A stretch of 35,323 nucleotides of DNA from a virus: positions 1 to 35,323 of the IMG/VR virus record IMGVR_UViG_3300042731_003507; one strand, given 5' to 3'. Below, piece after piece: positions 2,234 to 26,320 of the stretch; position 1 is the first letter of the stretch; each line of letters begins with the position of its first letter. The position numbers and the translations under genes were made by a program. A model generated the notes under the pieces. The model was not told the origin of the DNA and searched no databases. It saw only the letters and a program-made list of their open reading frames with translations.

Positions 2234-2992
2234 TTATTCTCCAAAGACCCTCTTTAATTCCTCATACATAGCCAAAGCAACTTCTCTATCTATTTCGACA
2301 GTTTCTGGAGTAGGAAGTGGCTCTAACTCTGCGTATTGTCGTAATTGTTCTTCTGTACCATTAAAGTAGTTAAGGTCTATATCATTGCTAGATGCACCAT
2401 ATGTATTACCAAGACCATTTCCATCAGCGGAGTATTGCCACAAAACCCAATTATCAAGATTATTAGCCCAAGGATAGCACTTGAAAAATCCGTCGCTCCA
2501 AGGACTTGTAAGACTTGCTTTATATCTGGCACACCATAAATCATATGCCAGTGCCCATGACGGCTTTGTTGTAGCAATATTCCAGAAGGATGCTCTGGTG
2601 TATATTAGTGGTTTTACACCTAGATTATATTCTATTCTATCTAAAAATTTCTTCAATCTACTTGTCAGTAATACTTTGTCAATATTGTTTGATGCTTCAA
2701 TATCTGCTACTGGTGGTAGATTGCGAAATTTATATTCAATTAGATTTGAAAAGTAATCAGCCTGTTTAATAGGGTCTTGATTAGCTCTCCAAAACCAGTA
2801 ATGTCCAATTATATCTAGATGGTTTGGTGCTTCTGTCGCATTAACTTCAAATTTATAATCAGTATAAGGAATACCAGTTACATAATTTATACTTCCTGCC
2901 CTTATTATAGCACCTTTTGCATCTGATGTGGCAGTTTTGGACCAATTCATATCATCCTGCCAATGAGATACATCAATTAATTTAGGATACAT
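2234..2992 (-). CDS. GH25 family endolysin (lysozyme/muramidase)
   Basis: Glycoside hydrolase family 25 enzymes cut the N-acetylmuramic acid to N-acetylglucosamine beta-1,4 bond of peptidoglycan. The hallmarks are present in order: IDVSHWQ at the N-terminus (D7), HYWFWRA near residue 64, VADIEAS with the Asp/Glu pair D97 and E99, and WQYS followed by IDLNYFNGTEEQL near the end. The start is set at ATG 2992 (MYPKLIDV) because AAGGAGAAAATA precedes it; an ATG ten codons earlier overlaps the fibre gene and lacks a site. At 252 aa there is the catalytic domain plus a short acidic/helical tail, with no recognisable cell-wall-binding repeats. The holin candidate follows directly. Confidence 0.92.
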   Translation of the reverse strand: MYPKLIDVSHWQDDMNWSKTATSDAKGAIIRAGSINYVTGIPYTDYKFEVNATEAPNHLDIIGHYWFWRANQDPIKQADYFSNLIEYKFRNLPPVADIEASNNIDKVLLTSRLKKFLDRIEYNLGVKPLIYTRASFWNIATTKPSWALAYDLWCARYKASLTSPWSDGFFKCYPWANNLDNWVLWQYSADGNGLGNTYGASSNDIDLNYFNGTEEQLRQYAELEPLPTPETVEIDREVALAMYEELKRVFGE

Positions 2993-3006
2993 TATTTTCT
3001 CCTTAG

Positions 3007-4413
3007 TTATGAACTTCTCCACATATTAATTCTATCACCATACAATAGTTGATCTTTAGCACTGTCATTTCTAAATCTAGCAAACGGGAATCTAGCGGTC
3101 ATGTTAGTATTATCAAACTTATGTCCTAGACCAATGCCTGTAACATTCCATCTTTTAACTCTTTCATATTGATTAGATACCCAAGATTTTCCGTCCTCAG
3201 AATAATCGAAATACCAGTTGGTTCCATCTCTTCTAAATCTCAAATACATTGCAGATGGTTTATTATCGTTTGCAGCATTGTGGTCATCTACGCTCCAACT
3301 ATCATAATCAGTATGATAAATACCCTGCCAGCCATAACCAGCACCACCTCTGTAATGTGCCCAAAGCCATACATCGCTCGTAGAAAGATTTCCGGTGTCC
3401 TCTATTAGTAAAATTCCCGATCTATGTTGATTATCTCTATCCCAATGAGGACCTACGTATGTTGTAAAACTCCAGTTTGTTATTCCACTTGGAACAGGTT
3501 GATAAATTCCTTGTATATGGTTTATGCTTGTTGTAGTCATATAAACACCAAACTCATCTTCACCCACTGTTTGAGTTCCTGCTACATCAAATTCAGACCA
3601 TATACCAGTATCAAATGATGAATCATCAAATTCGTCATCATCTGTTCCTAAATAAGAATATCCAGATGCAGGAGGAGCATCAGGAAACCAAACTGTAAAA
3701 TCAGCTACTCCGGGTCCTCCTGTTCCTCCACTAATTGTAATATCTGCTTGTCCGCTACCACCATCGGCGATTGATACTGAGCTTCCAATAAAGTTTAGCG
3801 TTGTTATATCTGTAATATCGGAACCGCCATTCTTTAATACAGAAATACCACTTGCTAAGGTTCCTCCACTTACAGTAATGGTGACTTTTCCTCCACCTTC
3901 ATCTAATGTAGTAACCCCTCCTTCAAAATTTAAGGTTGTTACATTAGAAGCAGTTCCAGAATCATCTTCCTGAATGGTGATCGAGCCCGATCCTCCAGAA
4001 ATTGTTGTGGGCTCCCATTGTGTCAATGAATCATTCCATGCTATTGATTGTCCATCAGAGGGTGCTGTAGTAGCTACATCCCTGCCTTGAATCTTTATTG
4101 CGTCATGTTCAAGATCAGTTATATCACTTTCTGTATGTGTGTGACCAATTAAAGTATATCTACTATCATGTAAGTGACCTGAAGCAGCAAATATATCTGA
4201 TGGTTGGTTTATCCACTGCCCACTATCGTAGTATAAAACATCCCCGCCAGCAGGTGTTAATACTGTAACATCAAGTAAATTATCTAAATATGATGACGCA
4301 CCACCACTAATTAAAGTTAGTTCAAAACCACCTAGACCATCAGTGGTAATAGAAAGCCCAGATTGTCCAGTGGTATTTCTTATATCAGCGATAGTAATTT
4401 TAGTATTAGTCAT
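3007..4413 (-). CDS. fibre protein with concanavalin-like C-terminal domain
   Basis: This 468-aa protein has three parts. The N-terminus MTNTKITIADIR resembles that of the 250-aa fibre gene upstream and may be an attachment or trimerisation segment. The middle (about 75-235) holds beta-repeat modules shared with the 1797-aa fibre, such as GHLHDSRYT, ITDLEHDAIKIQGR and TTLNFEGG. The C-terminal part (about 250-468) is a beta-rich domain with YLRFRRDGTNWYFDYSEDG, typical of concanavalin A-like/DUF1349-type carbohydrate-binding sandwiches. It probably binds a host glycan. It starts one base after the LamG gene and ends just before the endolysin. Confidence 0.7.
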   Translation of the reverse strand: MTNTKITIADIRNTTGQSGLSITTDGLGGFELTLISGGASSYLDNLLDVTVLTPAGGDVLYYDSGQWINQPSDIFAASGHLHDSRYTLIGHTHTESDITDLEHDAIKIQGRDVATTAPSDGQSIAWNDSLTQWEPTTISGGSGSITIQEDDSGTASNVTTLNFEGGVTTLDEGGGKVTITVSGGTLASGISVLKNGGSDITDITTLNFIGSSVSIADGGSGQADITISGGTGGPGVADFTVWFPDAPPASGYSYLGTDDDEFDDSSFDTGIWSEFDVAGTQTVGEDEFGVYMTTTSINHIQGIYQPVPSGITNWSFTTYVGPHWDRDNQHRSGILLIEDTGNLSTSDVWLWAHYRGGAGYGWQGIYHTDYDSWSVDDHNAANDNKPSAMYLRFRRDGTNWYFDYSEDGKSWVSNQYERVKRWNVTGIGLGHKFDNTNMTARFPFARFRNDSAKDQLLYGDRINMWRSS

Positions 4414-4414
4414 A

Positions 4415-5251
4415 TTATATTCCCGCTAATTTTGAAACTAATATATCTTGTTTTGGTTGTAATATACCATTTAATTTATCCCACCAACCATTTGTTGACA
4501 TTATCCAAATAGGACCATCTTCTTCAGCTATATCTTCATAAGTTAGTCCAGAACCACTATTATATAATTCAGTAACTTCAGAAGAAGTAAGAACTCTTCC
4601 CCAAATAGCCGTTTCATCCATTCTACCATCATAAGGTTCAATAGGATCAAAATTATTCGCTATACCCAAATTAAATTGACCATCTTCTGCATTATAAGTA
4701 CCATTAGACCATGATTGAGTGTCAACTGTTCCATTATTTACGGACACACCTAATTGGTTATTACCAGCATCGTGATAAAAATAACAAAAATACCAAGTAT
4801 TTAATGAAAGTGATCCAAATGTACTTGCATATATTTTTTGAGTGGTGTCAGTAGTGCCTCTAATTTCTGCACCAAATTCGTTTTGATGTCCGCTGTCATC
4901 AAAAATTAATGTGCCCCAATGTGATTTGTTATCTCCAGGCCCAGAATAGTAAGACTTGGCAACTAACTTCATATCGTCGCCTACAGTACTTATAGATGCC
5001 ATTGGATAAACCCAAGAAACAACACTATAATTATCTTCATTATAAAAAGCTAGTTCATCTGTAGTAGGACATGCTTTATAGAGACTTTCTTGATTTGTCC
5101 ATTCAAACTCTGCTGCATTTCCATACTTAGCACTACTACTATAAGTAACAGTATTAGTATCAGTTAAATGATGTGTACCGTGGGAGTCATATCTAGTTCC
5201 ACTAGTTTCATCTAATGTCCACCAAGCAATTAAATCATCTGTAAGAGCCAT
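4415..5251 (-). CDS. LamG/concanavalin-like tail fibre lectin
   Basis: The 278-aa protein opens with LIAWWTLDETSGTRYDSHG and ends its main domain with GRMDETAIWGRVLTSSEVTE followed by LYNSG. These are the first and last signatures of LamG-like jelly-roll (Laminin_G_3) domains, covering roughly residues 7-235. Such domains bind sugars or glycoproteins. A short C-terminal segment (GPIWIMSTNGWWDKLNGI) follows. Ribosome binding site GAGGAA is upstream of ATG 5251, two bases after the preceding stop. Within the adsorption block it is likely a receptor-binding or side-fibre component; ligand unknown. Confidence 0.8.
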   Translation of the reverse strand: MALTDDLIAWWTLDETSGTRYDSHGTHHLTDTNTVTYSSSAKYGNAAEFEWTNQESLYKACPTTDELAFYNEDNYSVVSWVYPMASISTVGDDMKLVAKSYYSGPGDNKSHWGTLIFDDSGHQNEFGAEIRGTTDTTQKIYASTFGSLSLNTWYFCYFYHDAGNNQLGVSVNNGTVDTQSWSNGTYNAEDGQFNLGIANNFDPIEPYDGRMDETAIWGRVLTSSEVTELYNSGSGLTYEDIAEEDGPIWIMSTNGWWDKLNGILQPKQDILVSKLAGI

Positions 5252-16346: not shown

Positions 16347-19300
16347 TTATTCGCCCTCGATTACATATCCGCCACCACCACCAAGACTTCTATCTGTGGC
16401 GCTGACTAAATCTTCAAATAGATATTGTTTTACAACATTGGCTAACGTTCTGCCGTCTACTACTAATCTAATATTTGCGTTTAATTCAATTCTATTTTCT
16501 AATTGAAATGCTTCAACAAACTGCTCAGTTATTTGTTCAGCGGTTACTGGCTCTTGTATACCACCAGCAATTGGCTCACCGGTTCTCCAATCTATAGCTG
16601 TTTGTGCTCTACTGTCTTCTAATCTTGTACGCTCTTCTAATAATTGAGTTAAACGTATTGATAATTCATCTAAAATTTGATCGCCTTGTTCAAATGTAGC
16701 TTGATCTGTACCAGGTCTATTAATTCTTGTATTAACTTCATCTATAAGTGCTGCAACTCTATTAATTTCTTGTGTTATAGGATCAAGAGATGTAAAAGTA
16801 CCAGTTCTTCCTGATACAGTGCTTGGTGTAGTATCCCCTGTACCCTCAAAAAATGGAAAGGCACTTCCTCCCCCTCCACCAACATCTCTACTAAATAGAG
16901 AACTCCACGCAACAAATGCTGTTTGACCACTTGGAAGGTTCCATACACCTTCTAACTGTTGTTCATTTATATCAATTAAATCTTGCATAGCTAAATTTAA
17001 TAAAGTTAAATCAACATCTAATGTTTCAAATCCATCCTTCATAATTAATAATGTTGGGTCTTCCTGAACATCATATTCTGGAAGTAGAGTTTGAAATGTT
17101 CCTTTAACCGCACTATATCTTTGTAGTAATGCAGGAAGATCAGCAAGACCTAGTTGATCTCTTAAATCTTGGAATTGACCTGATGGTGTAGGTCCTAAAA
17201 GTGTATCATAACCCAAGTTTTCAGCAGCTTGAGTAATAAATCCAACTTCTTGATCCGCAAATTCAGCTACAAAATCTCTACCAATACCCTCTCCTGCGGC
17301 AATAACTACATCTCCAAAGCTTTCTACAAATATTTCAGCAGCCTCTAATGATCCATTTGCCATTCGTAGAGCGTATTCATCACGCACTCTATCAGCCTCA
17401 GCATTTAATCGAGCAATTTGCTGTTGATTTAGTCTTCCAGCTTCAAATACAGGTCTTCTATCTATACTAGCTAATAAAGCCCTGTCTCGAAGTGCTGGTT
17501 GTACATCTCTGAAGCGTTGTTGTGCGGCAGCACTTCTTTGAGCAAATCCAGCTAATTCTATTGCAGAACTTCCTTCAGCAAGTGCTTGATTATATTCTTC
17601 TTGGGCAATGATAACATCATTTGCAAGTGTTGTAGCAAAAACTCTGGTAGCATCGTCTAATTCCAGATAATATCCTAATAGTTCTTGTACACTAGTGCCT
17701 AATCCAGAAATTTCACCAGCTTGTAATATTCTACCAGCACCTAATGCTGTGGCACTTGTATCTTCAAAACGTCCTAAACGTTCTCTATATATATCTGGAC
17801 TTATTTCACCAAGACGGAGTTCTTGCAGAGATTCATTTAGAAATTCTTCAACAGCCCCTTGAACAGCTTGTTTAGTTACAGGATCAATTCTTAAATCAAC
17901 GTCTTCAAGAAGACCTTCTTCTTTTGCTCTTTGTGCTTCTTCCTTAGCGGCTTCATAAAGAGCATCTACTATTTCTTGAGCTGCTTCTCTTCCTTTTTGA
18001 CCAGGAAGTAGTAGTCTTGATACAGTAAAGAAAGGTATGCCACCTCTTGCTTCATATTCTTCCGGTGTTGAAACTCGTGCTTGTGCTAAACCAGTAAGAA
18101 ATCCTTCTTGTTTTATTTCATCTGAACCACCAATTGCAATTCTACCTAACCATGCTGAAAGACCTGAAAGAGTTTCGGCAATAATACCAAAGTGTTGATC
18201 CAGAGGTGTTTCTCCCTCAGTAGCTTCTTTTTCAGCATCTTTTCTTGCATCGGTAAATACTTCTCGCCACCAAGCTTCCATATCGTAACTAGTTACTGCG
18301 TCAGTAAACGCTGTAGCGGCTGTTGAACCTATAGCAGCTCCTATAGGGGTTCCTATACCTGTTGCTGAACCTATTAATCCGCCAACTATAGCTCCAACTA
18401 CTGTTACACCAGCTTGTTGTGCTCCTCCTGTCACATCTCCAGCTTGTGCTCCTCTAGCAAACTGCCCGTAAGCTTGCATTGCTGGCACAATGTATGGTAA
18501 TATACCACCAAATCTACCCTGTTGCGATAATGTTGGTCGTCTTGCATAAGCACCTCTATTACCACTTGCCGCTGACGTGAGCCTTGCTTGTAGGAATAAT
18601 TCATCTGATGTGGGACCACCAATACCTAATGCTGGAGCTAAACTTGAAAATGGTCCTTTCGCTATAGCTCGTTGTGCAACTCCAGTTTGTAGTACAGCCC
18701 AAGCTGCTACAAATGTAGCTACAGCGGGTGTAGCCTCTCCGAGTATTTCTACCAATTTAGTTATCTGTTCAAGTACTGCTGTAATTACATCTACAATCAG
18801 TGTCATAGAGTCTAGAAGACCTGCATCTTCTCCTAATGTCTGTGCAAATTCTGTAAATGCATTTCCAAGACGTGTTATAGCGGATTCTAATGTATCCATT
18901 TTGATTGCAAGAGCATCTGCCGCCTCTCCGCCAGCGTCTCTTTGTTCATCAATTAGTTGAAGAACACGTTCACTATTTTCAAGAGCAGTTTGAACCTGAG
19001 CACCCCGCCTATAACCACCACCAATGGCGTTCGCAATTTCTGTAACATCTCTTTGTGAAATAATACCGCTTTTAGCTAAGTTAGCAACTTCCAAATAAAC
19101 ATCAAAGAAATCACGTAATTCGCCTGTAGCAGTTCGTGTAGCAATACCAAATCTACCCAATGTTTGTTCCGCTGTGGCTGTCTGAAAACCAGCAACAATA
19201 CCACGAATAGCATTACCTGTTTCCGTAGCTGATAAACCAGTAGCTTCTGCTAGTGTTGCTGCCAAAGCATTTAATTCTTCTAATTGAAGACCTACACCCT

Positions 19301-20831
19301 CAGCAGTTGTACCAACAATTGCATATGTTTGTGCAAGAGTATCTAATGATACATTAGCGGTGCGTGATACCTTTACCCACTGGTCTAATAGTTCTCTACC
19401 TTGATCTAATTCTCGTCCTGTTTGACGTAATGCACCAACCAAAGTATCTAGAGCAACCGCCTGCTCTACACCTGCCAATTTAGCTAAAACCATAGATTCT
19501 TGTAACAGGTTGTTTGCAACTGCTGCACGTTCTGTAGGATCAACAACTGAACCAGCGGCTCTGTATGCTAAAGCATATCCTTCTACAACACCTGCAACAC
19601 TTGAGCTTGTTAGATTAGCTATCTCAATAGCTTCTTCAAATACTTGATTTAATTGTTCTTGACTACCTTGAACAGCAATATTAACTTGTGCTAAACGTGC
19701 TTGAATATCAATAACCTCTCTGGTAACTTGAGATAAAGCTCTCATAGCACCATAAACAATTCCAGTAGCAGCAGCCCACTGAATAACTTTTATGATATTT
19801 AAACCAACTACTTCACCAAATGAACGAAATCTTCTTGAAGTATCTCTAAGAATATTGCCCATATCATCCATTCTAACAACACCCTGTCTAAATACTCCAT
19901 CAGCTTCTTGCATAGAGAAGCTCATTGTTAGAATACCATTATTAACATCTCTTGATGCACGGGTTATTCTAGCAGATGTAATTCCAAATTCTTCCATACG
20001 ATTTGTTAGATTTTGGAATCCACGTTCACCACCAGGAATTACATTCTCATATTGTCTTAATAACTCACCTATTGGTTTTTCACCTTCGGGAAGACCTAAA
20101 TCTGGTGCTATACCACCACCTGCTGCGAGACCTCTCAAAGCAGCAAATCTTGGATCAGCAGGTGTTGCTTGTCTTGCTGCAAGTGCTTTCTGTTCCTGTA
20201 ATGCTAATTCTTCAGCAACAATATCTCTAATTCTTGCTTTCATATTAGCCTCTTCAACATATAAAGCTTGAAGGGCTCCTAGTTGTTGTTGTGCCTCTGC
20301 TTGAAGCCTAGCACGTTGTTGAAGCAAAGCGACGGTTCTTTCAAGCCCTTCTGCTGTTCCACCAGTAGCAGTGTATAGAGCTTCTGGACTTAGTTGACCA
20401 ACTGTAGCTTGAATTCCTCTGAGCTGGTCAGCCATCTCTTGTCTTGTAAATTGTTCTGCCGCAGTTCTTTGACCCGCTAAATATCTAGCACCTGCTCCAA
20501 AAATTCCTGGGCCGGGTCCTATTCTACCTAAATTTCTAGTTCTATTTTGAATGGCAGCAAAGTTTCCAAGCTCTACATTATATCTCTGTAATGCTACTTT
20601 TGCAGAATCAAGTACAGCACTTTCTGCTCCTAGAGCTTTTAATTGAATAACCAAATTATTAATACTGGTTACAACTCTATTCATATCACCAATAAATTGA
20701 CCAGAAGCACCTGATAAACTACTTAATTGTTGTTTAAATTCTTTTATTTCTTCTTCTGACGCGTTTGATGCTTCAATAAATTGATTTAATGCTTCTACTA
20801 TTTCTCTGGTAGTCTGTCTAATATCTGCCAT
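16347..20831 (-). CDS. tape measure protein (1494 aa)
   Basis: Very long protein directly after the tail chaperone. The N-terminal ~300 residues are helical, with many Gln/Ala-rich coiled-coil stretches. Residues ~360-700 match the TP901-type tape-measure core (RAAGSVVDPTERAAVANNLL, LVGALRQTGRELDQG, ATETGNAIRGIVAGFQ). Hydrophobic segments lie near 345-375, 680-720 and 800-835 (VGAIVGGLIGSATGIGTPIG, glycine-zipper-like), and may insert in the host membrane at DNA ejection. It sets tail length: with the usual rule of about 1.5 Angstrom per residue, the tail would be near 220 nm. The ATG overlaps the TAA of the chaperone's frameshifted end (TAATG). No lytic domain was noticed. Confidence 0.93.
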   Translation of the reverse strand: MADIRQTTREIVEALNQFIEASNASEEEIKEFKQQLSSLSGASGQFIGDMNRVVTSINNLVIQLKALGAESAVLDSAKVALQRYNVELGNFAAIQNRTRNLGRIGPGPGIFGAGARYLAGQRTAAEQFTRQEMADQLRGIQATVGQLSPEALYTATGGTAEGLERTVALLQQRARLQAEAQQQLGALQALYVEEANMKARIRDIVAEELALQEQKALAARQATPADPRFAALRGLAAGGGIAPDLGLPEGEKPIGELLRQYENVIPGGERGFQNLTNRMEEFGITSARITRASRDVNNGILTMSFSMQEADGVFRQGVVRMDDMGNILRDTSRRFRSFGEVVGLNIIKVIQWAAATGIVYGAMRALSQVTREVIDIQARLAQVNIAVQGSQEQLNQVFEEAIEIANLTSSSVAGVVEGYALAYRAAGSVVDPTERAAVANNLLQESMVLAKLAGVEQAVALDTLVGALRQTGRELDQGRELLDQWVKVSRTANVSLDTLAQTYAIVGTTAEGVGLQLEELNALAATLAEATGLSATETGNAIRGIVAGFQTATAEQTLGRFGIATRTATGELRDFFDVYLEVANLAKSGIISQRDVTEIANAIGGGYRRGAQVQTALENSERVLQLIDEQRDAGGEAADALAIKMDTLESAITRLGNAFTEFAQTLGEDAGLLDSMTLIVDVITAVLEQITKLVEILGEATPAVATFVAAWAVLQTGVAQRAIAKGPFSSLAPALGIGGPTSDELFLQARLTSAASGNRGAYARRPTLSQQGRFGGILPYIVPAMQAYGQFARGAQAGDVTGGAQQAGVTVVGAIVGGLIGSATGIGTPIGAAIGSTAATAFTDAVTSYDMEAWWREVFTDARKDAEKEATEGETPLDQHFGIIAETLSGLSAWLGRIAIGGSDEIKQEGFLTGLAQARVSTPEEYEARGGIPFFTVSRLLLPGQKGREAAQEIVDALYEAAKEEAQRAKEEGLLEDVDLRIDPVTKQAVQGAVEEFLNESLQELRLGEISPDIYRERLGRFEDTSATALGAGRILQAGEISGLGTSVQELLGYYLELDDATRVFATTLANDVIIAQEEYNQALAEGSSAIELAGFAQRSAAAQQRFRDVQPALRDRALLASIDRRPVFEAGRLNQQQIARLNAEADRVRDEYALRMANGSLEAAEIFVESFGDVVIAAGEGIGRDFVAEFADQEVGFITQAAENLGYDTLLGPTPSGQFQDLRDQLGLADLPALLQRYSAVKGTFQTLLPEYDVQEDPTLLIMKDGFETLDVDLTLLNLAMQDLIDINEQQLEGVWNLPSGQTAFVAWSSLFSRDVGGGGGSAFPFFEGTGDTTPSTVSGRTGTFTSLDPITQEINRVAALIDEVNTRINRPGTDQATFEQGDQILDELSIRLTQLLEERTRLEDSRAQTAIDWRTGEPIAGGIQEPVTAEQITEQFVEAFQLENRIELNANIRLVVDGRTLANVVKQYLFEDLVSATDRSLGGGGGYVIEGE

Positions 20832-21840
20832 TATCCAATCTCATCTTCACTTATTTCAAGTATAGCTTCTTCAGGTTCTCGTTTTCTATCAAGTACTTTA
20901 TCAAACCATTCATCAATATCCCGTTGTGTTCCATACCAGATTATATTATCCGGCGGTCTTTTTTCTTTAGGTAGTTCACTAAACGAATCTATTTGCATTC
21001 TTTTACGAATAGCAAAACTTATTGTCCAAGGTAATTCATCAGTTGGGGGAAGTCCATCGTGTAACGGTAGACCACTTCCTCTGGCTACTGACCAGGCTGT
21101 ATCAAACCCGTTACTCCTCGCAATTTTTTTAGGTCATCCATACCAAGTTCTAGATTTCTATAAGCATTTAGTAATTCATTCTTTAATTCTTTTGGTGAAT
21201 TTTCAAACTGCTCAAAAGATTCAAATGCCAATTTTTTATATTCAGGGTCTTTATATGTTCCTAAATAGATACACATTTCATAATATTTATCAGCCATTTC
21301 AACTGAACAAAGCCTATCTATAACATAACCTTCATAGATTTTATATAGTTCATCTATCTCTTTCTTTTCAAGTCTTTTATATTCTTGTTTTTCAATCTTA
21401 CGAGTATTTTTTTCTAATTCTTTTTGATATTTTTCACTATAAGCATCTACCTCTTCTTGATATTTTTCCATATCTTCAAGAGGAGCATCTGATTTTGGAA
21501 CTTTTGGTTCTGGAACATCTGTAGCGTTGATGGCTTGTCGATTAATTTCTCCAGCCCCAAGAATTAGAATGGATTGAATTAAAGATTCTTTATCTGAAAA
21601 TTCTGGTAATTCGGCAATAAATGCATCACGTAAAGCAGAGCCCTCGGTTTTAAGTTCTCTTCTCATTTGACTTGAGCGTCTTAATCCAAAAACTCTTGCT
21701 TTATTTATATCTGCATCACCAACTATTCGCAAGTATACAGTTGCTGATTTGTTGGTAGTTCTATCCTTTATTTCAACTTCCTTTTCGTATTGAAAAAGTC
21801 TCGTAATATCTACGTCGCCTCTTTCTATATCTCTACTCAT
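20831..21840 (-). CDS. tail assembly chaperone, long -1 frameshift form (G-T like)
   Basis: Between the 251-aa frame's stop (21085) and the tape measure lies a well-formed 97-residue reading frame with no usable start codon. It joins the upstream gene by a -1 shift at A AAA AAA (21130-21124). The fused product would be 336 aa: 239 residues from frame 0, then IARSNGFDTAWSVARGSG and on, including LPWTISFAIRKRMQIDS and a charged C-terminus ending ISEDEIG. This reproduces the lambda gpG/gpGT organisation found ahead of tape-measure genes in most siphophages: short and long chaperone forms coat the tape measure during tail assembly. The stop TAA at 20833-20831 overlaps the tape-measure ATG. Confidence 0.85.
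21085..21840 (-). CDS. tail assembly chaperone, short form (G-like)
   Basis: A 251-aa product starting at ATG 21840 after AATAGGAGTGGAGAA. The N-terminal ~110 residues are mixed alpha/beta (VEIKDRTTNKSATVYLRIVG). A Pro-rich linker with a long charged helix follows (about 140-185, KYQKELEKNTRKIEKQEYKR), then a helical end. It lies between the major tail protein and the tape measure, the fixed place of lambda G-type chaperones. Most ribosomes should stop at TAG 21087-21085, giving this form. It is not a virion component in known systems. The internal coiled coil makes it longer than the typical ~120-140 aa. Confidence 0.78.
   Translation of the reverse strand: MSRDIERGDVDITRLFQYEKEVEIKDRTTNKSATVYLRIVGDADINKARVFGLRRSSQMRRELKTEGSALRDAFIAELPEFSDKESLIQSILILGAGEINRQAINATDVPEPKVPKSDAPLEDMEKYQEEVDAYSEKYQKELEKNTRKIEKQEYKRLEKKEIDELYKIYEGYVIDRLCSVEMADKYYEMCIYLGTYKDPEYKKLAFESFEQFENSPKELKNELLNAYRNLELGMDDLKKLRGVTGLIQPGQ
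21124..21130 (-). promoter_or_regulatory. -1 programmed ribosomal frameshift slippery site
   Basis: The frame-0 codons CTA AAA AAA TTG present the heptamer A AAA AAA in the X XXY YYZ phase. Slipping back one base opens ATT GCG AGG AGT AAC and continues 97 codons to the tape-measure start. A GAGGAG lies a few bases downstream. No obvious stimulatory hairpin was worked out. Confidence 0.82.
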
Positions 21841-21939: not shown

Positions 21940-23130
21940 TTAGGCTCTTTCGCCTGAGAACATTTGAATATCGCCGTCTTCTGACTTGATATCAAACGTC
22001 TGTTGTGCGTTAGCATTCACATTTGAAGTGAAACCATCACTTGTCACAATAATTGAAGGTACATACACTGTCTTAAGAACTGTAAATGGTTCTGTCTTGT
22101 CTTCTGGGTTTTGAAGCTTGATATCCAAGCTGATGCCAGAAGCAGTGTATTCTGATGCCTGAAATTCCGTGTCTGCTGGGTTCAATTGTCCAGTTGTTAA
22201 TAGTGCAACTAATTCTGTGTCTGTATCCAGAACTGTAATTGTACCTGTAACGCTAGGAACCTGTAGCTGGTATCCAACTACATCTCTGTTGCCCATCTCA
22301 CGTACTGTTTCAGGATTGAATGTACCATTCAATGTTACTGATTGTACTCTTTCGATTCCATTTGCAGCCAATACAACGGGTACGTCAATACCACGTATAG
22401 CGGCTGGCATTGTGTCATCTGAAACATCGCTCCAATTTGTGCCTGCGGGTGTTGCTTGATAAATAGCAATTAGCTGACTTGTACGGCTGTCGCCAGTTGT
22501 CAGCGTAGTACCAGATACAGAATATTCTCCTGTACCTTCGCCTGATGCTACCTCATCAAGATATACACCATCTAAAATTACTGAAATGCATTCATTTCCA
22601 TTCTTTAATGTAACAGGTGTTTCAGCTAATGAGAATGATGTTGTTCCTGTAACAAATTTTTCTACAACAATGTCATTCTTGAACCATCTCTTCTGTGTAC
22701 CGATAACGGTATATTCTTCTGTTGATTCTCCGTCAACTGAGTAGTTGAGTGAGAAGTCACGCACAGTGCATTTACGGGCGTGAGCAAATTTCACATAGTC
22801 TTCTACCGTGTAATCTTTAATCTGTGCAACTAGGTCAACTTCACCAATTTCACTGATGCTTACACCAGAAGCAGGATAGTTATCATAATCTGTACCTGTC
22901 AACACTGAGAACAGCTTCAAACCAACATCCATAGCTTGGAATGTTGCAGTTACGTTAGGAACATCTTCAACTGTACCAGCATGTAGTCGGTTGCCCAACT
23001 CATCAATATCAGTTGAAGGTCTGTCTGCGGTAAGTGTCAAACGCTGAACTCTTGGAATTACTAACGCATCCCTTTCACCAACAAGCTTTAATTGTACGTG
23101 CTTAGATGGAATAGCAATTCTTCTAGCCAT
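21940..23130 (-). CDS. major tail (tube) protein with internally duplicated domain
   Basis: 396-aa protein upstream of the tail chaperone and tape measure, with strong RBS AGGAGG; no sheath gene is present. Two halves repeat. Residues 27-79 (RVQRLTLTADRPSTDIDELG, then NR..G...VP.VT.T, ending SVLTG) match 261-314 (RVQSVTLNGTFNPETVREMG, NR..G...VPSVTGT, ending ALLTTG). The similarity continues through ASGVS/ASGIS and the following beta strands up to about 155 and 392. Between them, about 165-245, sits a beta-rich insertion that may be an Ig-like or decorating domain. A duplicated tube domain is known from T5 pb6, where trimeric rings mimic hexamers; the same is inferred here. A terminator follows. 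Confidence 0.82.
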   Translation of the reverse strand: MARRIAIPSKHVQLKLVGERDALVIPRVQRLTLTADRPSTDIDELGNRLHAGTVEDVPNVTATFQAMDVGLKLFSVLTGTDYDNYPASGVSISEIGEVDLVAQIKDYTVEDYVKFAHARKCTVRDFSLNYSVDGESTEEYTVIGTQKRWFKNDIVVEKFVTGTTSFSLAETPVTLKNGNECISVILDGVYLDEVASGEGTGEYSVSGTTLTTGDSRTSQLIAIYQATPAGTNWSDVSDDTMPAAIRGIDVPVVLAANGIERVQSVTLNGTFNPETVREMGNRDVVGYQLQVPSVTGTITVLDTDTELVALLTTGQLNPADTEFQASEYTASGISLDIKLQNPEDKTEPFTVLKTVYVPSIIVTSDGFTSNVNANAQQTFDIKSEDGDIQMFSGERA

Positions 23131-23141
23131 CTAACTTCCTC

Positions 23142-23594
23142 CTAAATTGCGTTATATTCTGTAAAAAATCTTATAGTATTTCTCCAATATAGCTTCTCTA
23201 CTAACTCTGGAAAAATTCGTATTGTTCTTACTTCCCAATCAATAGGTCTTAATAAACCTAATTCGCTGGGAGTAGTGCTGGGTGGAAATCCTTCATCATA
23301 ATCATATACAGGAATTCCATACTCCAGATCATTTAATATTATAGACGTAAGCTCATCTCTTTGTGCCTTGTTGGATGCAATTATTTCCAAAGACCACATT
23401 CGCTGTCGCCTACTTCTTCGATTTCCTAGCTCCTTCTGTCGTGGTCGAATATCATGTGATTCAACACTTACAGAAGGTATTTCTAAATCTTCACCTGGAA
23501 ACCCATCTTTTATTGTAACAGTAGGATAAGAGCTTAAAACATCATCTTTTAGCCAATAAAATATACTCAAATCTTGTTTTCGTTCAAGTTGCAT
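23142..23594 (-). CDS. putative tail terminator / tail completion protein (150 aa)
   Basis: Small mixed alpha/beta protein immediately upstream of the major tail protein, the usual place of the tail terminator (lambda gpU-like), which caps the tube and joins it to the neck. Visible features are IKDGFPGEDLEIPSVSVES, an Arg-rich stretch (RRSRRQRMWSLEIIAS) and a beta strand with the helix RDELTSIILNDLE. RBS AGGAG precedes the start. The assignment is by size, order and general pattern. Confidence 0.55.
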   Translation of the reverse strand: MQLERKQDLSIFYWLKDDVLSSYPTVTIKDGFPGEDLEIPSVSVESHDIRPRQKELGNRRSRRQRMWSLEIIASNKAQRDELTSIILNDLEYGIPVYDYDEGFPPSTTPSELGLLRPIDWEVRTIRIFPELVEKLYWRNTIRFFTEYNAI

Positions 23595-24624: not shown

Positions 24625-25071
24625 TTAACCTTCCTTTTCGACCAGAGTAACAACAATTCTATTTATATCTGGAACTCCTCTCAAAGAAATATCTTTCTTT
24701 ATAAATTCTTTTCCATCTACTAAAAAGTAATTAACATTATTTACCGCATCAATATTTGCTTGTGTATATTTTATCTGAATTTGAGCGTCACCGTCTACGA
24801 TAAAACCGCCCACTGTCCAGATTGGCATATCTACATTTTTCATTCTAACATGAGCTGTTACAGTTATGCCTGATGTAGTATTGATCCAATAATCTCCACC
24901 ACATATATCACAAAATTGATTTACAGATAAATTAGTAACAGGGTCCAAGCTACAGCCTGAAGCGGGACACGGTATACCTGAAACCGTCGCATAGATTGTA
25001 ATGTCCCGACCTATGGCATCCCTTATATCATCAATAATGTCGCTTGTGTTACTGGGCCAGTATATTGACAT
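24625..25071 (-). CDS. putative head-closure (stopper) protein with Cys4 motif
   Basis: 148-aa protein of mostly beta character (IQIKYTQANIDAVNNVNYF, RGVPDINRIVVTLVEKEG), a pattern like the lambda gpFII/SPP1 gp16 head-closure family in size and position. Unusually, near residues 34-61 it has CPASGC and CDIC, four cysteines set as C-x4-C...C-x2-C, which could hold a zinc ion. It overlaps the GT4 gene end by 23 nt. Function inferred from gene order. Confidence 0.5.
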   Translation of the reverse strand: MSIYWPSNTSDIIDDIRDAIGRDITIYATVSGIPCPASGCSLDPVTNLSVNQFCDICGGDYWINTTSGITVTAHVRMKNVDMPIWTVGGFIVDGDAQIQIKYTQANIDAVNNVNYFLVDGKEFIKKDISLRGVPDINRIVVTLVEKEG

Positions 25072-26320
25072 CTCTGCGTTTTACTTCCTCTAAGACATTC
25101 ATTAATTGACCAGCGATGTTTTTCCAGTCATATTTTGGATCAGATGTAATTTCAATAGCTTTTTGACCCAACTCCTTTAACATTTTTCCGCCGGTTTTCC
25201 AATCTTGATAAACCTCTTCTAGTTTTTCAACTAAGCCATCTGTGCTTGGAACCCTGCCAACAGTGTGTGTGCCCTCATAAACATGTTCCGCAATCGTTGG
25301 AATGTAGATTGCAGCATCTCCCCAAATTTCGGGCAGTACCGAGTGGTCCGGCACAATTTGAGGCTTACCCACTGATCCGTGTTCCCAAGATGTTAGACCC
25401 CAACCTTCTCCCATGCCTGTGTTTAAACCTACATCACATGCATTGTAGATCAAATTTAGTCTTTCATCAGGAATATTCGGAAGGGTAGGAACATTTGCAC
25501 TGATTGCTAAACGGTCATCAAAACCGTATCTAACAGCAAGTCTCATGATATCCCAACCCATATCTTTTGTACCCATATGAAGGTACAACTTCACGTTTTT
25601 AGGTTTATCCCGTGAGAATTCAGCAAATGCTCTTAGCGTGATATCAATTCTCTTTCGGGGTTGATTTCTGTTGGCATTCAAAACAATAAATGAATTTTGA
25701 AATTCTGGTTTGTTCTGAATTGGGAAGATTGCTTCTCTTGCAATCTGGGTTCCCGTCTTGATAATCTTTCCATCACTTGTTGAATCTGGAATAGGATAAA
25801 ATCTATTCTTATCAACTCCGTGAGGAAGAGTTTCAATTGTTGTGGGGTTTACAGCCCCTGTTTCAAGAATAACATTTTTACCAAACTGAGTATATACTAA
25901 TGTCTTCTTGACTAATTCTGCATAATCCCTAAACCATAGCGGATCATGCTCGGTTGCATCTACTGGAAAGTAAACAACAACTGGAATTTGCTCAATACCT
26001 TGTACAACACCTTTAGCTTCAATAATTGATGCTAAGTATCTTTGTAATACCCAAGGATCATTGAGCATAAAAATTACGTGGGGTTGAACATATTGAATTA
26101 GATTAATAAATCGTCCAAATCCCCATAGGTCTCCTCCAAGAGATGCTGGATACATTTTCCACCAGTTCTCATGAGGGTCTCCACGATAATTTACAGCTAA
26201 ATGGTGTACATCAAACCGTTCTTTATCAAATTGTTCCAATAAACTGTGAGCTACTCTCGAAAACCCTGTAGGAGCCTCACCATCACTAACCCAAAGAATT
26301 CGCATCCTTTCCTCTGACAT
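25049..26320 (-). CDS. GT4-family glycosyltransferase in the neck operon
   Basis: The 423-aa protein has a GT-B fold pattern. It opens with ILWVSDGEAPTGFSRVAHSL (a glycine loop binding the sugar donor), then PHVIFMLNDPW and VYFPVDATEH. The C-terminal domain has FIVLNANRNQPRKRIDITLR (the usual N.R..RK/R strand) and GMGEGWGLTSWEHGSVGKP near 300, the E-x7-E donor-site motif of GT4 enzymes. It transfers a sugar from a nucleotide donor to an unknown acceptor. Cytoplasmic, no TM. RBS GGAGG is strong. Its place between connector and stopper genes is odd and suggests a moron or a virion-modifying enzyme. Other glycosyltransferases lie upstream of the terminase. Confidence 0.9.
   Translation of the reverse strand: MSEERMRILWVSDGEAPTGFSRVAHSLLEQFDKERFDVHHLAVNYRGDPHENWWKMYPASLGGDLWGFGRFINLIQYVQPHVIFMLNDPWVLQRYLASIIEAKGVVQGIEQIPVVVYFPVDATEHDPLWFRDYAELVKKTLVYTQFGKNVILETGAVNPTTIETLPHGVDKNRFYPIPDSTSDGKIIKTGTQIAREAIFPIQNKPEFQNSFIVLNANRNQPRKRIDITLRAFAEFSRDKPKNVKLYLHMGTKDMGWDIMRLAVRYGFDDRLAISANVPTLPNIPDERLNLIYNACDVGLNTGMGEGWGLTSWEHGSVGKPQIVPDHSVLPEIWGDAAIYIPTIAEHVYEGTHTVGRVPSTDGLVEKLEEVYQDWKTGGKMLKELGQKAIEITSDPKYDWKNIAGQLMNVLEEVKRRDVNILAQ

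Follow-up and report, generated by a model that had tools for sequence, protein, structure and literature searches.

We suggest that the gene at 21940-23130 of the window (the whole stretch of viral DNA analysed, 35,323 nucleotides) encodes the major tube protein of a siphophage tail, built from a duplicated tube domain, probably assembled as trimeric, pseudo-hexameric rings and carrying between its halves an inserted beta-rich domain that probably faces outward; we give this reading a probability of about 0.88. The open reading frame, strand and coordinates are as an earlier note on this DNA gave them, and the gene and its neighbours are arranged as follows.

21940-23130, minus strand: tail tube protein (396 aa), two tube domains and an inserted beta domain
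22675-23130, minus strand: first tube domain, residues 1-152, with the sequence-repeat block of residues 27-79 at 22894-23052
22393-22674, minus strand: beta-rich insertion with its linker, residues 153-246, of which 153-226 form the compact core
21943-22392, minus strand: second tube domain, residues 247-396, with the sequence-repeat block of residues 261-314 at 22189-22350
21085-21840, minus strand: gpG-like tail assembly chaperone, by position and a conserved frameshift signal; directly downstream of the tube gene
20831-21130, minus strand: probable gpGT-like extension via a -1 frameshift (A7 at 21124-21130)
16347-20831, minus strand: tape measure protein, 1494 aa (phrog_4211, E 1.4e-29; PhageMin_Tail above its cut-off)
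23142-23594, minus strand: probable tail terminator, by position (gene order) only

The tandem duplication proposed in the earlier note is borne out by blastp between the halves, by profile-profile comparison and by a common predicted fold, and the shared landmarks it listed were located at residues 27-79 and 261-314. With the single sequence, blastp of residues 1-170 against 241-396 gave an E value of about 1e-7 (32% identity over 77 columns). A profile-profile comparison of the halves from 61 sequences gave E 6.8e-13 (23% identity, 132 columns, score 81.2; 2.5e-8 in an earlier comparison with 27 sequences) and aligned residues 5-141 with 243-380, while the top score among 50 column-shuffled control profiles was 21.7. 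Similarity between the halves within one chain recurs at E < 1e-3 in 74 of the 83 relatives, and the pairs R27/R261, Q29/Q263, E44/E278, G46/G280, P58/P292, D68/D302 and G79/G314 are invariant at both equivalent positions. Tail proteins often contain tube domains that resemble one another little in sequence, a background that would suit halves made alike by convergence of beta-rich sequence with no duplication at all; the profile E value with its shuffled control, the collinear order of the landmarks and the recurrence among relatives leave that idea almost no probability. The resemblance was thought to carry on to about residues 155 and 392: structurally it does, the last matching strands lying at 146-150 and 389-392, but by sequence it ends near 141 and 380.

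The AlphaFold2 monomer model is of moderate confidence (pLDDT 78.1, pTM 0.77, with pLDDT below 50 at residues 1-9, 232-239 and 243-245). Far from having different folds, the two halves of the model share one order of strands and helix: strands 28-36, 39-43, 50-55 and 59-66, helix 71-78 and strands 98-105, 114-131 and 137-144 in the first have their counterparts in strands 264-270, 274-277, 284-288 and 293-301, helix 305-313 and strands 333-340, 351-368 and 376-383 of the second, at an offset of about 234-239 residues. Model and Foldseek agree on the tube fold, a beta-sandwich with a helix and a long loop. Against the PDB, the best nine Foldseek matches are tube or tip proteins of SH-Ab15497, P74-26 and T5/DT57C (E 7e-12 to 6e-9), all of which superpose across both domains at once (rmsd 6.0-8.8); whole-chain superposition on 9iny, 8ed0 and 8xan (rmsd 6.0-6.5) gives the domains the mutual arrangement found in trimeric tube proteins. 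Tube proteins from other phages rank further down (best E 3.9e-6) and either match a single domain or superpose poorly. Among predicted viral proteins, 137 match the model at E <= 0.001, and many of the top ones have 290-440 residues, so tube proteins of such shape may be common.

These matches and the gene context together support the tail-tube identity given in the earlier note. In the window and in the relatives, whose loci repeat the same neighbours, the tube gene stands just ahead of the tail chaperones and the tape measure gene. The chaperone gene has a homologue at 81 relatives' loci and the probable terminator gene at 87; family searches with either protein were without a match. The -1 frame after A7 stays open until the tape-measure start, and the slippery run lies at the equivalent place in 15 of the 16 relatives inspected, the other (L052) having CCCAAAA instead. 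No sheath family matched either neighbour of the tube gene or any other window protein scanned, and the sheath gene that would mark a contractile (myophage) tail is thus missing from beside the tube gene. Because a tape-measure gene and a frameshifted chaperone adjoin it and no sheath family was found, we regard the product as a siphophage tube protein. Elsewhere on the minus strand, a glycosyltransferase gene (25049-26320; PF00534, E 2.9e-8), with a homologue at 71 relatives' loci around the tube gene, lies between the head-completion and tail genes and may act in virion glycosylation; a small neck-region protein (24625-25071) contains four cysteines, arranged in the motifs CPASGC and CDIC, and possibly binds metal; and the genes at 2234-3022 and 4415-5251 encode a glycosyl hydrolase family 25 protein (lysozyme-type endolysin) and a protein with a laminin-G/concanavalin-like lectin domain.

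Part of these data would also fit a tube-like protein with two domains that forms just one ring at the tail tip, in the manner of T5 p140 or the HFTV1 baseplate-tail connector, and is not the major tube protein: the top fold matches include the T5 tail-tip core chain 7qg9_G, which we take from its length to be p140, and the equivalent chain of DT57C, and the HFTV1 connector forms a trimer with pseudo-hexameric symmetry. However, preceding the chaperone and the tape measure is the place of a major tube gene, in the window as in the relatives, and the window yielded no second candidate for a tube protein, which makes a tip role unlikely. As for stoichiometry, many single-domain tube proteins have an extra outer domain, and a major tube protein could by analogy form a hexamer of full-length chains with its second domain outside the ring. 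Here, however, what would lie outside the ring is a tube domain in its own right, in which the same landmark residues are invariant, and the placement of the two domains matches that in trimeric tube proteins; a hexamer of this kind is very improbable.

Trimeric, pseudo-hexameric rings are probably the best reading. A single tube domain (a beta-sandwich with a helix and a long hairpin loop) would have been duplicated and fused, and since each chain would thereby supply two tube domains, three chains, where six are usual, would probably close a ring of true three-fold and pseudo six-fold symmetry. Through its hairpin loop and its conserved landmarks, each of the two domains would probably make equivalent contacts to the next ring, and the rings would stack on one another around the tape measure protein, helped by the frameshifted chaperone. 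The conserved beta domain that separates the halves would probably face outward, as a decoration or docking surface.

This insertion, put at about 80 residues in the earlier note, is real and beta-rich and proved slightly longer (residues 153-246), most of its core (153-226) reaching a pLDDT of about 90 or above in both models and a poorly modelled linker following to residue 246. The domain spans about 75-95 residues, and its mean column conservation is 0.69 against 0.56-0.75 in the tube parts; conservation like that of the tube domains and a nearly constant length argue against a disposable ornament. A conserved beta domain between the halves of a tube protein is new. It had no Foldseek match at E <= 0.001 (best E 0.04, TM-score about 0.5), no Pfam match, no PDB sequence match of note and no paralogue among the open reading frames of the window or of the relatives' loci. 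Most of its best twenty weak structural matches are nevertheless phage portal-tail, neck and tail proteins (LME-1, crAss001, Pa223, T5, DT57C, SU10 and the P74-26 neck). A dock domain has been described in the SU10, T7 and KP32 adaptors and holds the long tail fibres in SU10 (PMC9509320), and the ring proteins of crAss001 have a beta-sandwich domain, two of them forming the interface with the fibre hubs (PMC10172136); we infer that the domains matched by the insert are those which these two texts describe. By such weak fold matches the insert is like the beta domain of head-tail adaptors (the T7/SU10 fibre dock, the crAss001 ring proteins, the DT57C/T5 head completion protein), but it resides in a different carrier protein and has no sequence match to them. 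A role as dock or decoration is putative, a lead and not a result, and the stronger version, in which a neck-type docking domain inserted between the tube halves would provide three docks per ring along the whole tail, is doubtful; if true, fibres or a glycan-binding or decoration protein would be held along the tail and not only at its neck or tip. The conserved insert is a testable candidate for a tail-surface function.

Relatives are encoded by at least 112 environmental virus contigs, with 48-86% identity among the matches listed; in 50,697 deposited phage records the sole relative belongs to Caudovirales GX15bay from mangrove soil (24% identity), whose tube protein (L044:11962-13179) was deposited as an 'epimerase', likely a misannotation. 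As to the host, two genome-bin contigs bear unrelated names and gave no assignment. Pfam, PHROGs and PDB sequence searches with the window tube protein returned nothing useful, and phrog_985 is the only family that touches, weakly, either half of the relatives. The family was previously unannotated, and it is new in that its halves are still alike in sequence. In a midpoint-rooted tree of the halves, GX15bay included, all first halves form one clade and all second halves another (support 0.99), and therefore one old duplication preceded the origin of the family. With separate halves of relatives as tblastn queries no single-domain cousin emerged in phages, only GX15bay. In a bacterial genome bin, a 144-aa phrog_985 protein (L093:1441-1875) is encoded directly after a 478-aa protein that is probably sheath-like, as judged from its sequence without a family scan; this adjacency suggests a single-domain tube cousin, and phrog_985, which is labelled 'virion structural protein' in the head and packaging category, may represent single-domain tail tube proteins, while a profile comparison of the tube family with this 144-aa protein was not significant.

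Among known systems, T5 pb6 arose by duplication and fusion and forms trimeric, pseudo-hexameric rings, as established experimentally (PMC5717097), and the analogy drawn with it gains support from the duplicated fold and the fold match (T5/DT57C pb6: 5ngj, 9iny, 8hrg). The accessory domain of T5 pb6 is Ig-like and C-terminal, whereas the extra domain here lies between the halves. The further claim that such a design would be novel outside T5-like phages fails on published precedents. One is the Thermus phage P74-26, whose duplicated, trimeric, pseudo-hexameric tube was seen by cryo-EM in 2023 (PMC10034513): like the present protein, its tube protein (8ed0; fold match E 6e-11) consists of two fused tube domains in a phage that is not T5-like, but it has 348 aa, a linker joining its domains and halves 16% identical to each other. 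The other is the Caulobacter phage phiCbK, another C3 tail going by the 1973/1982 work as cited in PMC5717097 and PMC10034513; here the likeness is one of symmetry. The best fold match is the solved two-domain major tail protein of the Acinetobacter phage SH-Ab15497 (8xan; E 7.4e-12, whole chain), which at 306 residues has no room for the insert and for whose symmetry no paper was found. Known two-domain tube structures in general have 306-375 residues and no insert between the halves. No significant sequence match was obtained to the T5, P74-26-type or SH-Ab15497 tube proteins, including that of P23-45, a close relative of P74-26, nor did hmmscan or hhalign match the T5 pb6 family phrog_3575; the link is by fold only. 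Half-against-half blastp of the T5, P23-45 and SH-Ab15497 proteins produced only artefacts of overlapping cuts and was discarded. A large environmental family thus joins the few known duplicated tube proteins, and as its halves are recognisable by sequence its duplication can be set beside those in T5 and P74-26; should these prove independent, trimeric tubes would have evolved more than once.
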